From Bacteroidota bacterium (GTDB lineage Bacteria > Bacteroidota > Bacteroidia > NS11-12g > UBA955), in contig CAUJCT010000038.1 in the NCBI GenBank assembly GCA_963169345.1, forward strand, positions 1 to 48,405: a stretch of 48,405 nucleotides of DNA, given 5' to 3'. The position numbers were made by a program, and so were the translations under genes. The notes below the pieces were generated by a model, which saw only the letters and a program-made list of their open reading frames with translations, ran no database searches and was not told the DNA's origin. Positions 1,938-32,447 of this stretch are shown here, one piece after another. The first letter of the stretch is position 1; every line of letters begins with the position of its first letter.

Positions 1938-4900
1938 GTGACATTCATCCGCAAAATATTATCAGTGTGTGTGTTATTATCCTGTCAATTCCTGATGGGT
2001 AATCCTGTTGCAGATTTTTCTATGTCTGTTTCTCAGGGTTGTGTGCCACTAACAATTAAGTTCACTAACAATAGCACCGGTACAGGTCTCAGATATTCCT
2101 GGTCTTTTGGAAACGGAAACCAATCTACCCTAAAAGATCCATCTGCCATTTATTACCGTTCAGGTAAATTTACAGTTACATTAACAGTAACAGATGCCAA
2201 TGGTAAGCAATCCAGCAAGACATTTAATCCAATAAGGGTATTTTCCAATCCTGTTGCTTCTTTTATATCCGATACAGTCGGATGTATTGGTCAACCTTTG
2301 GCTTTCACCAGTACTTCGACTCCGGGAGACACAAGTATAGTTAAATGGACCTGGGATTTTGGAGATGGACAGCTAGGTTCAGGAAACAATCCTCAACATG
2401 CGTATACTTACAGCACGAAATTCAGTATTGGATTAACAGTTGTCGATGGATTCGGTTGCAAATCTCTGGCTGTGAAACCTCAGTACGTCAGAATAAAACC
2501 TTCCCCCAAAGCCTCATTTAAACTGGACAAGGATTACAGTTGCAAACTTCCCGGTGTTTTTAATGCTACAAATACTTCGCCTGGAACGAACACATATTCA
2601 TGGGTATGTTCAGATGGTAAATCCGGAACAGGTACAAGTTTCAGTACCAATATCAGTTCTTATGGAAAATACAATATTACACTGAACGTTGCTAATGGTG
2701 GTTGTACAACTTCAGTTGTCAAAAGTGTGAATGTACAAAAGTTAATTTCAAAGTTTACCTTAGATCAGGGTTCAATTTGTGTGGGCGCAGAGGTTAAATT
2801 TGAAAATATTACAACACCTGATAACAGTTCACTTAAATTCAGTTGGGATTTTGGAGATGGTTTGAAGGATACTGCTAAATCACCTAAACATACTTATATC
2901 AGTACCGGAAAATACAATGTTAAGCTCAGTGTAAGCAATGGAGTATGTAATGATTCAACTGTTCAGACTTATACCGTGAATCCAGTTCCAAATGTGGATA
3001 TCAGTGTTGTGGACACTGTAGGGTGTAAAGCACCGTTTACAGCAAAATTCAATATTACCGGTTCAGAGTATGTATCAAGTGTCTGGAAATTTGGAGATGG
3101 GACTAGCGAAAAATATTTCAGAAGAGGTGATAACATTCAGCATCAGTATAATAAAAAAGGGTCTTATCCTGTCAGTGCAGTTGTAACCAATTCTTATGGT
3201 TGCGGGCAGGAATTGGATTTAGAAGAAAAGATCCATGTCGGCACACAGGATGTCGAAATTAATCCTAAGGAATATAATGCTTGTCTTCCAAGTGATACCG
3301 TATACAATGCTGAGTTAAACTTTATGCAGCCTGTTGAATCTATAAGCTGGTTGTTTTCAGATTCAGGGCGCATGTATTATGGCCAAAAAGTCAAAAAGCA
3401 TTTCGAAAAAGCAGGAAATTTTTCAGCAATTGTCAAAGTGCGGACTTATATGGGTTGTGAGATATCAGACACAGCGTCAATTTCGGTAGGCCATAGATAT
3501 GTCCCAACGTTTAATATTCATGATTACGATGTCTGTGCTATTGATAAAATTAGTTTTGAAAATACAACTGATGATTCGTTAAAGAAGTTTTTAAAATTTG
3601 GGTTCGAGACCATTCATCAATACAAAGGAGATACCGGGACCACATTGAATATCCGGGATTCAGTTTTTGAATCGCACAGAGGCGGAAGGCATGTATTTAA
3701 GATGTATGCTATACATTTTGGATGCAAAACCCCTTCTGAAATGACAGATACTGTTTATTCTCATGGACCATTTACCAGCTTGTCGATTGAGCCATTGGAT
3801 TGTAGAAATACCAGAGTAAGAGTTAGTCCATCAGTTAGTTGGGCCAACCGATACGAATTCTGGAAAGATGATACCATTCGTTTGCCAATACAAACAATCA
3901 TTCAGAAATGGGATCCAAACAAGTATGTATTAAAAGCCTGGAATGATACATTTGGTTGTTATGGTGAGCAAAGGCCGCTTGGTCCACCACCTTTCAATTA
4001 TCAATTGACTACAAGTTGGAAACTGAGTCAGGATTGTGCACCTTCAATAGCCAATTTAAAAAGCAATATTTTACCTGTTAAAGTTAAATGGGTAATAGAC
4101 AATAAAGATAGTTTATCCGGTAAAAATGTCAATTTTACATTTAAAGAACCCGGACTTAAAAACATCATGGCGGTAGCAGTGTTCGATTCGATTGATTGTC
4201 CGGATACTGTTTATTTCTCATTAAACGTCAATGGTGTCAAGCTGCGTTCAAATGTGTTAAAGCAGGGGAAATGCCTTCCAATGACTTTACAGTTAATAGA
4301 CACTACTGCCGGCAGTGACAACGATATTCATACCTGGATAGTCAATGATTCAATCATGGAAGTGAATCAGATGCTGACCAGTTTTGTTGTTGGTTCTATG
4401 ACTTCCGGTGATACAGCGATTAAAATTAAGCATATAGTGTCAAGTCCGAGTGGTTGCTCTACAGAAAAAGAGTTTTCCATTCCTTATGAAGGTCCTGTAG
4501 TCAATTACGAAATACGCAGATTTACAGTATGTGATACACCAGTTTTTTACTTTAAATCTTATCCGGATACATCCAGATCGAAGTTCCCTTTGACCTACCA
4601 TTGGAAAACTGATCATGGGTTTGAAAGCCAATCAGCTAATGCCAATGCTAAGTTCAAGGAAATGGGTATGCATTATCTGACCTTCACGATTACAGACAGA
4701 AATGGTTGTTCTACTGTTTATAAAGACAGTTTTGAGGTATCACCAAACATGCTGGCACCTCAGTTTAAAGCCAATCCTACCGGCAGATTTTGCCCACCTT
4801 TGGAATGTGAGTTTACAGACATGTCCAAATCATTTATATCAGAAATTAATTCATGGGAATGGGATTTTGGAGATGGCACTACTTCGCAGCTTCGCAACCC

Positions 4901-28513: not shown

Positions 28514-30691
28514 CTATTTTAAAAAGAGCAAATCGCGGTATTTTGGCAATTTCCAGGCATCGTTGTCGATTAGCTCTTCGAGTTTATCTGCACTTTCTCT
28601 GATTTCATCAAAGTAAGGTTTTACCTTATCGCAGTATGCTTTAGCCTTTTTATCGGCATGGTTCAGATTATTCGCTTTTTTGCGTTCTTCAATCATCTTA
28701 TTGTTGTTTTCCCAAATCAAATTAATGTGCATTGAAATTTCTTTCGCCAGCTCATATAAATGTTTGTTTTGGGCTTTTGTCTGACCAATTCTGCTTAATC
28801 CTTCAATGGTGTCTACTAATTTCTTCTGATATTCAACTGCAGATGGAACGATGTAATTTTTAACCAGTTCACCTAGAATTCTGCCTTCAATTTGAATTTT
28901 CAGCAAATAATTTTCGAATTTAATTTCGGTTCTGGCTTCTAATTCTTTATCAGTGAAAATATTGTTCTTTACAAAGAGTTCTTTGCTTTGTTTAGTAGAA
29001 TAGGCGTCAAGGGCATACGGAGTAGTTTTAATATTATTTAAACCTCTTTTAGCTGCTTCTTTAACCCATTCTTCACTGTATCCATTGCCTTCAAAGATTA
29101 TTTTCTTAGAAGATTTCACATACGATTTAAGAACTTGTTCAATAGCTTGAATTTTATTCACTTTCTTTTTAACCAGAGCGTCAACCTCCTTTTTGAATTT
29201 CACCAGTTGTTCACCCACTATTGTATTGAGAACGATAATGGCATTTGCACAATGGTCGCTGGAGCCAACTGCTCTGAATTCAAATTTATTACCTGTAAAA
29301 GCAAATGGAGAAGTTCTGTTTCTGTCAGTGTTATCTAATAGGATTTCAGGAATTCTGTAGACACTTATTTTCTTTTCACTTACTTTACTGCTTTTACCTT
29401 TGCTTGGTTTAGATTGTTCGAACTGGCCGAGGACATCACTCAGGGTACTTCCAATAAATACTGACATGATAGCTGGTGGGGCTTCATTAGCACCCAAACG
29501 GTGATCATTAGCTGCTGTGGCAATACTTGCTCTCAGAAGATCGGCATTGTCGTGAACAGCTTTTATGGTATTGATAAAGAAAGTCAGGAACTGCAGGTTG
29601 TCAATTGGGCTATGACCGGGAGACAACAGGTTTACACCGGTATCTGTGATAATTGACCAGTTATTGTGTTTACCTGAACCATTTACACCTTTAAAAGGTT
29701 TTTCGTGCCAAAGTACTTTAAGTTTATGTCTGCTGGCAACCGATTGCATAACATCCATAAGCAGTGAGTTGTGATCGATAGCCAAATCAGCCTCTTCGAA
29801 CATTGGAGCACACTCATATTGACCGGGAGCTACTTCGTTGTGACGGGTTTTGAGAGGAATGCCTAGTTTAAGAGCTTCTTTTTCAAAGTCTGTCATATAG
29901 TTGTAGATTCTTTCAGGAATGCTTCCAAAGTAGTGATCTTCCAATTGTTGTCCTTTTGCTGGCATGTTACCAACGAGGGTACGACCGGCAAACACCAAGT
30001 CAGGGCGTTGGTTATAGATTTCTTCATCCACCAGGAAATACTCCTGTTCGATTCCCAAAGACACTTTTGCATTTTTCACATTAGGGTCGAAATATTGACA
30101 GACATCAGTCGTAATATTGGTTAAGAAGTTGGTTGATTTAATTAGTGGAGCTTTATAATCGAGCGCTTCACCAGTATAAGCAACAAAAATTGTTGGAATG
30201 CACAATGTTTTACCACTAGCTTTTTCCATTATAAAAGCAGGAGAGGAAGGGTCCCAGGCACTATAACCTCTAGCTTCAAAAGTATTTCTTATACCACCAT
30301 TAGGGAAACTGGATGCATCAGGTTCTTGTTGTACCAGTGCTTTACCGTTGAAAATTTCAATACCTGTATCAATTCCGGTAGGTTCGAAGAAAGCATCGTG
30401 TTTTTCTGCTGTAGAACCACGTAAAGGCTGAAACCAGTGGGTGTAGTGCGTAGCACCTCTTTCAATCGCCCAGTTTTTCATACCTTCTGCGATTTGGTCC
30501 GCCATTTTGCGGTCCATTGGTTTGCCTGTGTTTCGAGATTCGTTAACCGCCTTAATGGCTTCTTTGCTGACGTATTCGGCCATAGCTTTTGGTCCGAATA
30601 CGCTCTTTCCGAAGTATTCTGAAATTTGTTTCATGGAGTTTTTGGGTAAGGATTTGTCTTGAGAATGGGATTTACCAGATGATTTTATCAT
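28514..30691 (-). CDS. glnN: Glutamine synthetase type III
   Basis: 725 residues from ATG 30691, the size of GSIII and much larger than GSI. The GSIII-type start KQISEYFGKSVFGPKAMAEY is followed by THYTHWFQPLRGSTAEKHDAF. The catalytic core has SLGIEQEYFLVD, KTRHNEVAPGQYECAP, the ATP/glutamate region GVNGSGKHNNWSI, and the segment RNRTSPFAF. It makes glutamine from glutamate, ammonia and ATP in the cytoplasm; GSIII is the main form in many Bacteroidota. An in-frame TTG at 30712 falls inside the promoter box and is rejected. The gene has its own terminator and faces a degenerate Fic protein gene across 127 bp. Confidence 0.95.
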   Translation of the reverse strand: MIKSSGKSHSQDKSLPKNSMKQISEYFGKSVFGPKAMAEYVSKEAIKAVNESRNTGKPMDRKMADQIAEGMKNWAIERGATHYTHWFQPLRGSTAEKHDAFFEPTGIDTGIEIFNGKALVQQEPDASSFPNGGIRNTFEARGYSAWDPSSPAFIMEKASGKTLCIPTIFVAYTGEALDYKAPLIKSTNFLTNITTDVCQYFDPNVKNAKVSLGIEQEYFLVDEEIYNQRPDLVFAGRTLVGNMPAKGQQLEDHYFGSIPERIYNYMTDFEKEALKLGIPLKTRHNEVAPGQYECAPMFEEADLAIDHNSLLMDVMQSVASRHKLKVLWHEKPFKGVNGSGKHNNWSIITDTGVNLLSPGHSPIDNLQFLTFFINTIKAVHDNADLLRASIATAANDHRLGANEAPPAIMSVFIGSTLSDVLGQFEQSKPSKGKSSKVSEKKISVYRIPEILLDNTDRNRTSPFAFTGNKFEFRAVGSSDHCANAIIVLNTIVGEQLVKFKKEVDALVKKKVNKIQAIEQVLKSYVKSSKKIIFEGNGYSEEWVKEAAKRGLNNIKTTPYALDAYSTKQSKELFVKNNIFTDKELEARTEIKFENYLLKIQIEGRILGELVKNYIVPSAVEYQKKLVDTIEGLSRIGQTKAQNKHLYELAKEISMHINLIWENNNKMIEERKKANNLNHADKKAKAYCDKVKPYFDEIRESADKLEELIDNDAWKLPKYRDLLFLK

Positions 30692-30709: not shown

Positions 30710-30738
30710 CAAAGGTAAAATTATTCATCTCAAGTCAA
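30710..30738 (-). promoter_or_regulatory. glnN promoter TTG-N18-TACCTTTG
   Basis: On the minus strand TTG (30738-30736) and TACCTTTG (30717-30710) are 18 nt apart, a good match to the Bacteroidota promoter. The -7 box lies 18 nt before the glnN ATG. Confidence 0.55.
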
Positions 30739-30787: not shown

Positions 30788-30814
30788 TGTCGAAAAAATG
30801 ATATAATTTCGACA
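30788..30814. promoter_or_regulatory. Inverted repeat TGTCGAAA-N11-TTTCGACA
   Basis: Perfect 8-bp arms at 30788-30795 and 30807-30814. The right arm covers the -7-like TAATTTCG (30804-30811) of the Fic-like gene, whose ATG is at 30819. The geometry fits an operator for a dimeric DNA-binding protein, possibly the winged-helix Fic-like protein itself. Confidence 0.55.
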
Positions 30815-30818
30815 CAAA

Positions 30819-31883
30819 ATGATAAATTCACAAATTCCGTTTAATCAGTTGCCTTTTTTAAGGAATCGTCTGGATAGTAGTTTGAGTGGAATTGAAAGAA
30901 CAGAAATGACGTGTTTAAGGCAATTGGAATATCTTAATGGCTATTTAGATGGGATTTTGGATGAACAGGTACAAGAGTTTCTTGAAATATTACATTTAGC
31001 AGATTTCAGACACTCATTGGATTTAGAGAGGGAGCCGATTGCTTTGCACAGATTGATGGAAGGGTATTGTTCGGAAAATGCTTTGAAGGATCCTCAACTT
31101 CAGTCGGCACTTAATTATTTGAGTTGGTACAGAGAGGTTCGTTCGTTGAGTTTAGATCAATTGGCTCCCGGATATTTACGACTGATTAGAAAGGGGGCAG
31201 ATTCAAACAGAGAAAGGAAAGAAATTACAGTTAAAAGTTATTTTACGAATTTAACATTGTACACTGCGCCTCAGGGGAATACTGTACTTCAACCGTTGAG
31301 ATTGGAGTTGGACAGTTTCCTGAAAGATATTTCCAGCCAGGATTCATTAACAAGCCTTGCCATAATTCATTTTCATATTAGAACATTAGCGCCTTTTAAT
31401 GACTTTAATGGTTTTGTGGCGCGGGCATATAACATGTTATCTCTACGACTTATTGGTCTGAATTATGATTTTATTCCGCTTTCTTGGGCAATTACCAAAA
31501 GGAAAGAACAATATCAGTCGCTGATAAGACAGTGTATTTCCGAGAATAATTTAGAAGCCTGGGTCCGCTTTATGCATGAGGTAGCCGAGTCTGCAGCACA
31601 TAGACTATACATACAATTGAAGTCGATGTTAAAGTTAAAGAGAAAATTGAAGGATCAGTTATTAAAATACACTATCTACGATTTTCCTGAAGAGTTGGTG
31701 GGAGTGTTAATGAAGCAACCCTATATAAAGACGGCACATTTGACATCTGCACTTGGGTGCCACAGACATACAGCATATACCTATCTGAATCATTTGGTAG
31801 CGATGGGCATTTTGATTGAAAAGACATCTGGCAGGGAGAAATTGTATTTACACAAGGAGTTATTCGATTTAATTAATGATTGA
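30819..31883 (+). CDS. Fic-fold protein with degenerate active site and C-terminal winged helix
   Basis: 354 residues. The overall order is that of Fic family proteins: an N-terminal helical region, LYTAPQGNTVLQPLRLELD (normally YTPPxG), a helix leading to the active-site loop, EQYQSLIRQCISENN, then a C-terminal winged helix (KTAHLTSALGCHRHTAYTY). The Fic loop HPFxDGNGRxxR reads APFNDFNGFVAR at residues 191-202: the catalytic His is Ala191, the first loop Gly is Phe196 and the phosphate-binding Arg is Phe199. AMP transfer is therefore not expected. It may be a transcription regulator or a binding protein. It is divergent from glnN and has an inverted repeat over its promoter. No mutation interrupts the frame, so it is a conserved-looking pseudoenzyme, not a broken gene. 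Confidence 0.75.
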   Translation: MINSQIPFNQLPFLRNRLDSSLSGIERTEMTCLRQLEYLNGYLDGILDEQVQEFLEILHLADFRHSLDLEREPIALHRLMEGYCSENALKDPQLQSALNYLSWYREVRSLSLDQLAPGYLRLIRKGADSNRERKEITVKSYFTNLTLYTAPQGNTVLQPLRLELDSFLKDISSQDSLTSLAIIHFHIRTLAPFNDFNGFVARAYNMLSLRLIGLNYDFIPLSWAITKRKEQYQSLIRQCISENNLEAWVRFMHEVAESAAHRLYIQLKSMLKLKRKLKDQLLKYTIYDFPEELVGVLMKQPYIKTAHLTSALGCHRHTAYTYLNHLVAMGILIEKTSGREKLYLHKELFDLIND

Positions 31884-31971
31884 ACTCAAGAAAGTCCAAG
31901 GTTAAAAAATATTCTCTGAAATAACAAGTATGTCTTAATGAAAGCAGCTTAAATTTTGACAAGAAATGCAG

Positions 31972-32371
31972 AATTTTTTGTAGAATGAGGAGTGAAGTTT
32001 TTATTTTTTTTAATTTTCGATACCCTAGCAGGGTGATTGAAATTAAAATAATTGTTTCCATTAAAATCAAATACCTTTTCTAAATGAAATTAACAAGTGA
32101 CTTTTATTGAATTCAAATGAATTTTTAATGAAATAGAAAGAATTTTTTGTAGAATGAGGAGTAAAGTTTTTATTTTTTTTAATTTTCGATACCCTAGCAG
32201 GGTGATTGGTTTTAAAATAATTGTTTCCATTAAAATCAAATACCTTTTCTAAATGAAATTAACAAGTGACTTTTATTGAATTCAAATGAATTTTTAATGA
32301 AATAGAATGAATTTTTTGTGGGATGAGGAGTGAAGTTTTTATTTTTTTTAATTTTCGATACCCTAGCAGGG
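31972..32371. repeat. Tandem 169-bp repeat, 2.4 copies
   Basis: Copy 1 is 31972-32140, copy 2 is 32141-32309 and partial copy 3 is 32310-32371. Copies 1 and 2 differ at only a few bases. Each has an A/T run and then ACCCTAGCAGGGT (32022-32034, 32191-32203, with the last base C in 32360-32372), which can form a 5-bp hairpin. No protein is encoded. The array fills most of the 564-bp gap 31884-32447 and ends 76 bp before the exporter gene. Only an AT-rich leader with a near-consensus box (TTACTTTG, 32433-32440) follows. Confidence 0.85.
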
Positions 32372-32447
32372 CGTTTTGCATTAAAAAAATTCCCTTTACC
32401 GCCTCCCCACCCCAAATCCCACAAAAAAGTATTTACTTTGCTCTCTG

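Follow-up and report, generated by a model that had tools for sequence, protein, structure and literature searches.

A Fic-fold protein with a degenerate active site, divergent from glnN, as a probable local transcription regulator in a genus of Bacteroidota

We analysed a stretch of 48,405 nucleotides of a Bacteroidota bacterium (contig CAUJCT010000038.1 of assembly GCA_963169345.1; the whole stretch is called the window below), belonging to a genus known from metagenomes. The window encodes a relative of Sofic (SoFic), the class II Fic AMP-transferase of an anti-phage system (NF046030, PDB 3zcn), and this relative, here called pseudo-Fic, has lost its catalytic motif and lies divergently beside glnN, the gene of a type III glutamine synthetase. 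We propose that pseudo-Fic is probably a dedicated local transcription regulator, which is predicted to bind a palindrome in front of its own gene, likely represses that gene and likely controls glnN. The support is at the level of sequence: the motif is dead, the predicted fold matches, the two genes are linked in every genome of the genus with glnN, and a palindrome lies between them at a near-constant distance from the glnN −7 element; conservation, moreover, runs opposite to that in active Sofic. An earlier note on this DNA did not have the palindrome with its fixed spacing to the glnN promoter, which offers a concrete mechanism.

Results

The pseudo-Fic gene (positions 30819..31883, forward strand) starts with ATG and encodes 354 amino acids that match SoFic in sequence and in predicted fold, the Fic fold being predicted over the whole length. 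Alignment to SoFic, to the family and to canonical rows places a degenerate Fic loop, APFNDFNGFVAR, at codons 191–202 (31389..31424), where Fic AMP-transferases have HxFx[D/E]GNGRxxR and where SoFic, in the pairwise alignment, has HPFIDGNGRTGR. His191, Gly196 and Arg199 (the first arginine of the motif) are absent, while Asp195, Asn197, Gly198 and the second arginine (Arg202) are retained; the alignment thus confirms the earlier note, which had read the catalytic His, a loop Gly and the phosphate-binding Arg as lost, with fold and winged-helix tail remaining. The profile scores follow the same division. The Pfam Fic domain (PF02661) scores 15.0 bits, under its cut-off of 24, and the Sofic equivalog NF046030 is not reached (118.3 bits against a cut-off of 550), but the C-terminal domain PF21248 (SoFic-like_C) passes with 58.3 bits against 27. 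This tail is a winged helix-turn-helix (wHTH; codons 285–345, 31671..31853) with a nearly invariant CHRxTA recognition helix and a GREKLY wing. At codons 66–71 (31014..31031), SLDLER aligns with the inhibitory-helix motif of class II Fic proteins, [S/T]xxxE[G/N] as given for CccR and CbFic2, and is probably a remnant of it; many rows of clade A, one of two clades of the family, have S..LE[G] at this position, and the Glu is an Asp in other clade A rows and in most rows of clade B.

We then compared 59 family rows (51 database proteins, the window's own included, and 8 locus proteins, with some duplicates). Aligned with the canonical rows, the catalytic His is found in none of the 59 (one row, P0051, has a gap near the site), nor does any row carry an intact HPFxDGNGR, the finding that according to the earlier note would have spoken against its reading. 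Its suggestion that Ala191, Phe196 and Phe199 might themselves be conserved did not hold, as these positions vary (among others A/S/G, F/L/M/Y and F/L/V/H/M, respectively); what is common to the family is the loss of the catalytic set and not particular replacement residues. Among six canonical rows, mean pairwise identity is 93.8% in the Fic loop and 37.3% in the recognition helix and wing, against 58.4% and 74.1% among 37 dead clade A rows. Within clade A the flap is 67% identical and Arg202 is invariant in the 37 rows. At the same locus, clade B retains the wHTH but neither the flap nor any residue of the Fic motif; its identity to clade A is 2.8% in the flap, 19.0% in the core, 11.0% in the loop and 68.1% in the recognition helix and wing. 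These alignments show the reverse of the conservation in active Sofic, with the putative DNA-reading helix kept and the Fic loop lost. The reading frame is open in 16/16 genomes of the genus that carry the gene. Of six pairs tried, three allowed whole-gene dN/dS to be computed, at 0.079, 0.039 and 0.082, and dS is near saturation in two of the three. Judged from these ratios, the gene is under purifying selection, and its longest-lasting part is the predicted DNA-reading surface.

The glnN gene (28514..30691, reverse strand) is the only glutamine synthetase match (PF00120) in the genome. Among 59 genomes searched, the window's own included, glnN was found in 57, of which 16 belong to the genus, and in all 16 pseudo-Fic adjoins glnN divergently. 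This survey of glnN neighbourhoods bears out the linkage on which the earlier note had made its reading depend. A 17th genome of the genus (G012, 87% complete) has neither gene. Outside the genus, 41 glnN loci (14 and 27) showed no pseudo-Fic in the roughly 0.8–1.6 kb read upstream. In the nearest of these by glnN (G022, 78%), glnN faces a likely ABC exporter, by eye the same as the one that follows pseudo-Fic in the window; we infer from this arrangement that the gene probably entered a pre-existing gap between glnN and the exporter. At the clade B loci L082, L083, L084 and L087, the exporter on the far side is replaced by a different gene on the opposite strand, so that the linkage of pseudo-Fic is kept with glnN only.

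Beyond the genus, the relatives that were read have active motifs. At the order level, six genomes match the profile at 1e-15, and the five that were read (G057, G017, G049, G044 and G042, with G056 left out) have HPFxDGNGR. At the class level, matches at 1e-30 came from 87 of 395 genomes (the window's own and G001 included); within the scope of this motif count, the 28 other loci L114–L141, we read 30 Fic open reading frames (ORFs), all with HP[FY]xDGNGR (29 by pattern, one by eye). At one of these 28, L125 (genome G303, from a different family within the class), an intact Sofic with HPFFDGNGR lies tail-to-tail with glnN (1411–2499 and 2553–3986, a gap of about 50 bp), a pairing that may be due to chance. 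The window's own genome contains three further Fic matches to pseudo-Fic (loci L002, L003 and L004, on contigs C25, C2 and C56), of which L002, the one read, is intact (HPFTDGNGR) and scores 326 bits with the PADLOC SoFic model.

Between the two genes lies a 27-bp palindrome, TGTCGAAAAAATGATATAATTTCGACA (30788..30814), of the pattern TGTCGA-N15-TCGACA, which ends 4 bp before the pseudo-Fic ATG and which we regard as a predicted operator on the basis of 16 loci, 17 genomes, its spacing and a control outside the genus. With at most 3 mismatches in 12 it is present at the corresponding place in 15 of the 16 loci (no mismatch in eight, one in three, two in two, three in two; five in G016). Its end is 4–6 bp from the pseudo-Fic start codon in 11/16 loci; in four loci of clade B it is 23–25 bp ahead of the presumed start. 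The exact pattern occurs 11 times in the 17 genus genomes, eight times at the locus and three times inside open frames, whereas the reversed pattern occurs once; the only other exact site in the window's own genome (C54:15789) is within an ORF. In the 14 glnN upstream regions from outside the genus, the best match has 3–5 mismatches. When two mismatches were allowed, the own genome gave 19 sites against nine for the reversed control, and many of them look like one dispersed repeat: near-copies of TGTCGATAAGCTTTAAGTATATCCACA recur (e.g. C10:50825, C34:67089, C35:18457 and C58:36850) and appear unrelated to the operator. A looser half-site, TGWYGA, considered post hoc and by eye, would move G016 and the weak clade B sites closer to the pattern and was not counted. 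The palindrome may also contain a −7 element of pseudo-Fic itself, TAATTTCG (30804..30811, forward strand), one mismatch away from the Bacteroidota consensus TAnnTTTG (as quoted in PMC7366714).

On the glnN side, a −7 element, TACCTTTG (30710..30717, reverse strand), is predicted; TAnnTTTG is found upstream of glnN in 15/16 loci, with TACTTTCG in its place in G006. The longest glnN ORF starts at TTG 30712, but this overlaps the element, and a start at ATG 30691 or at 30634 (the Met of MKQISEYFG) is more probable; the gap of 127 bp reported in the earlier note is right if glnN starts at 30691. From the centre of the palindrome to the −7 element we counted 91–94 bp in 15/16 loci and 82 bp, about one helical turn less, in G002. 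The standard deviation of this spacing is 2.6 bp, compared with 13.3 for the glnN leader (to the Met of MKQISEYFG), and the spacer itself shows hardly any sequence conservation (39.9% identity, compared with 34.0% after shuffling). Such a constant length over an almost free sequence argues that the palindrome acts on glnN too.

Finally, we searched the window's own genome, rated 99.93% complete, for other nitrogen control genes. There is no GlnE (no match to PF03710, in a search positive in 3/14 control genomes) and no PII (no match to PF00543, in a search positive in 13/14). GlnE-dependent adenylylation of the synthetase plays no part in this genome.

Discussion

The mechanism that we propose starts from a dimer of pseudo-Fic, which would be joined through the Fic-fold body as in active Sofic; EcSofic dimerises through its first helices (PMC12249575). 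Such a dimer would set its two winged helices on the half-sites, whose centres are 21 bp, or two turns, apart. Since the palindrome is 4–6 bp from the start codon at most loci, its occupancy would block the promoter of pseudo-Fic and cause autorepression. From about −97, on a near-constant helical face, the bound dimer would also modulate glnN, and our guess leans modestly towards activation over repression; blocking from this position seems the less likely course. Many divergently transcribed regulators activate the facing gene from an upstream site. As the signal, our leading guess is glutamine or, on the model of GlnR, the synthetase itself. There is precedent for a type III glutamine synthetase gene under strong transcriptional control: in Prevotella ruminicola, which has PII, the level of glnN-2 transcripts varies 35-fold with the supply of ammonium (PMC5552732).

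Compared with Sofic, pseudo-Fic lacks the catalytic His, the loop Gly and the first Arg, has its conservation inverted and is fixed to the glnN locus in one genus. The closest known circuit is that of CccR from Yersinia pseudotuberculosis, an active Fic–HTH protein whose autorepression acts through an inverted repeat and depends on the dimer interface (PMC9755527). Both proteins combine a Fic body with a C-terminal HTH, and both have an inverted repeat in their own promoter region, which at the pseudo-Fic locus is the predicted operator; the repeats differ in form, 10 bp–N26–10 bp for CccR and 6 bp–N15–6 bp here. CccR is, in contrast, an active and secreted AMP-transferase, whereas no family row has the catalytic His, and the excerpt of the CccR paper mentions no link to glnN. 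In a delivery assay, repression by CccR worked with the H192A form (PMC9755527). CbFic2 is likewise a class II Fic protein with a C-terminal wHTH, which binds DNA, but it is an active enzyme whose AMPylation is stimulated by DNA binding (PMC10628234).

GlnR is of the MerR fold type, and pseudo-Fic, with a Fic fold over its whole length, does not belong to this GlnR/TnrA type. Like GlnR of Gram-positive bacteria, pseudo-Fic is a local regulator candidate beside a glutamine synthetase gene, although GlnR lies in the same operon and pseudo-Fic is divergent (PMC9249791). GlnR, the model for a regulator that reads glutamine synthetase itself, binds the feedback-inhibited enzyme (PMC9249791); for pseudo-Fic this is only a candidate signal.

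Several observations weigh against our proposal. The site near −97 is far from glnN, and the palindrome is nearer to its own gene. The palindrome is not recognisable in G016 (five mismatches, shuffle fraction 0.75, not significant) and is weak in G006 and G007 (three mismatches; shuffle fractions 0.027 and 0.034), the shuffles being mononucleotide ones that keep single-base content and not dinucleotide content. The glnN −7 elements are predictions: in G009 a second candidate at 67 bp was passed over in favour of the one at 92 bp, and in G006 the element comes from a relaxed pattern and was preferred, at 92 bp, to two others at 49 and 29 bp. The loci share common ancestry, so the 16 spacings are not 16 independent observations. 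One exact off-locus site, in L111, falls within an open frame but only 41 bases from its 5′ end, and may be a promoter site and a further target. Moreover, the C-terminal domain of Sofic proteins is not always a proven DNA binder, and according to PMC10628234 SoFic itself had yet to be shown to bind DNA.

Pseudo-Fic might repress only its own gene through the palindrome and act elsewhere, or on nothing nearby, with glnN a passive neighbour. The palindrome abuts the pseudo-Fic start and has its centre about 97 bp away from the start site predicted for glnN, and CccR is an autorepressor of this type; we nevertheless consider the idea unlikely, as the linkage to glnN is kept in 16/16 genomes, clade B included despite its different far-side gene, and the distance to the glnN −7 is near-constant (the exception being about one turn shorter) across a nearly randomised spacer. 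Improbable, in our view, is a nucleotide sensor or residual enzyme whose Fic pocket would still bind ATP, AMP or a modified protein and report the state of energy or of the synthetase. The conserved clade A flap, the invariant Arg202 and the common inhibitory-helix relic would suit it, but clade B has lost the whole pocket at the same locus, which disfavours this role; the lost first Arg and Gly are part of the phosphate-binding nest (PMC3667792), crystals of EcSofic H194A contained no bound AMPPNP (PMC12249575), and no GlnE or PII partner was found in the own genome. The earlier note's pair of suggestions, a transcription factor or a nucleotide sensor, thus holds in part: the former is well supported, by the dead motif throughout, the linkage and the palindrome with its fixed spacing, and the latter is disfavoured. 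We also rejected an enzyme of altered chemistry, since no residue of the motif is left in clade B.

The dead protein could also act like an antitoxin, restraining active copies of Sofic in its cell by pairing with them, given that Sofic is a dimer and that the own genome has three further Fic matches. This is very improbable: another distinct Fic match (E ≤ 0.001) was found in only five of the 16 genus genomes with the gene (G000, G001, G002, G004 and G010; a search of limited sensitivity), and such pairing would explain neither the palindrome nor why the gene is confined to the glnN locus. That we are looking at a decaying defence gene, a pseudogene in the making, is scarcely credible. The motif loss and the PADLOC SoFic score of 121.7 bits are what a relic would display, but the frame is open throughout, the wHTH is nearly invariant and dN/dS is 0.04–0.08 (with the saturation given above), so that purifying selection already disfavours it.

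We thus return to pseudo-Fic as a local regulator of transcription, with control of glnN suggested by the locus. In the literature on Fic proteins with DNA binding, inactive Fic proteins, Sofic and glnN regulation, we found no dead-Fic regulator and no link between Fic and glnN, subscription papers being mostly outside this coverage. Autorepression by an active Fic protein is already known (CccR); no clade of Fic–wHTH proteins without the enzyme, with the DNA-binding side kept and tied to one metabolic gene, came up in this literature. If our proposal is true, a toxin-type defence protein has turned into a housekeeping regulator, with further decay of the inactive domain in one sub-clade. The proposal offers regulator, operator and target for a glutamine synthetase where neither PII nor GlnE is detectable, and control of ammonium assimilation in such a cell therefore becomes testable. 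It also carries a warning, since a defence-system model, PADLOC SoFic, still scores this candidate regulator as SoFic. More tentatively, and with considerable doubt, we can picture a phage-defence AMPylase that settled by glnN in the ancestor of the genus, lost its activity and became the nitrogen regulator of the cell, in a GlnR-like circuit reading glutamine or the synthetase without PII or GlnE.

Other features of the window

Between pseudo-Fic and the ABC exporter, positions 31919–32425 hold three tandem copies of a 169-bp non-coding repeat, whose RNA fold has a z of −1.8; an Rfam search of the window gave no match. Across the genome there are 62 dispersed matches to the core of the repeat, which includes the hairpin ACCCTAGCAGGGT, several of them in arrays spaced by about 165–172 bp (contigs C12, C30, C48 and C56).
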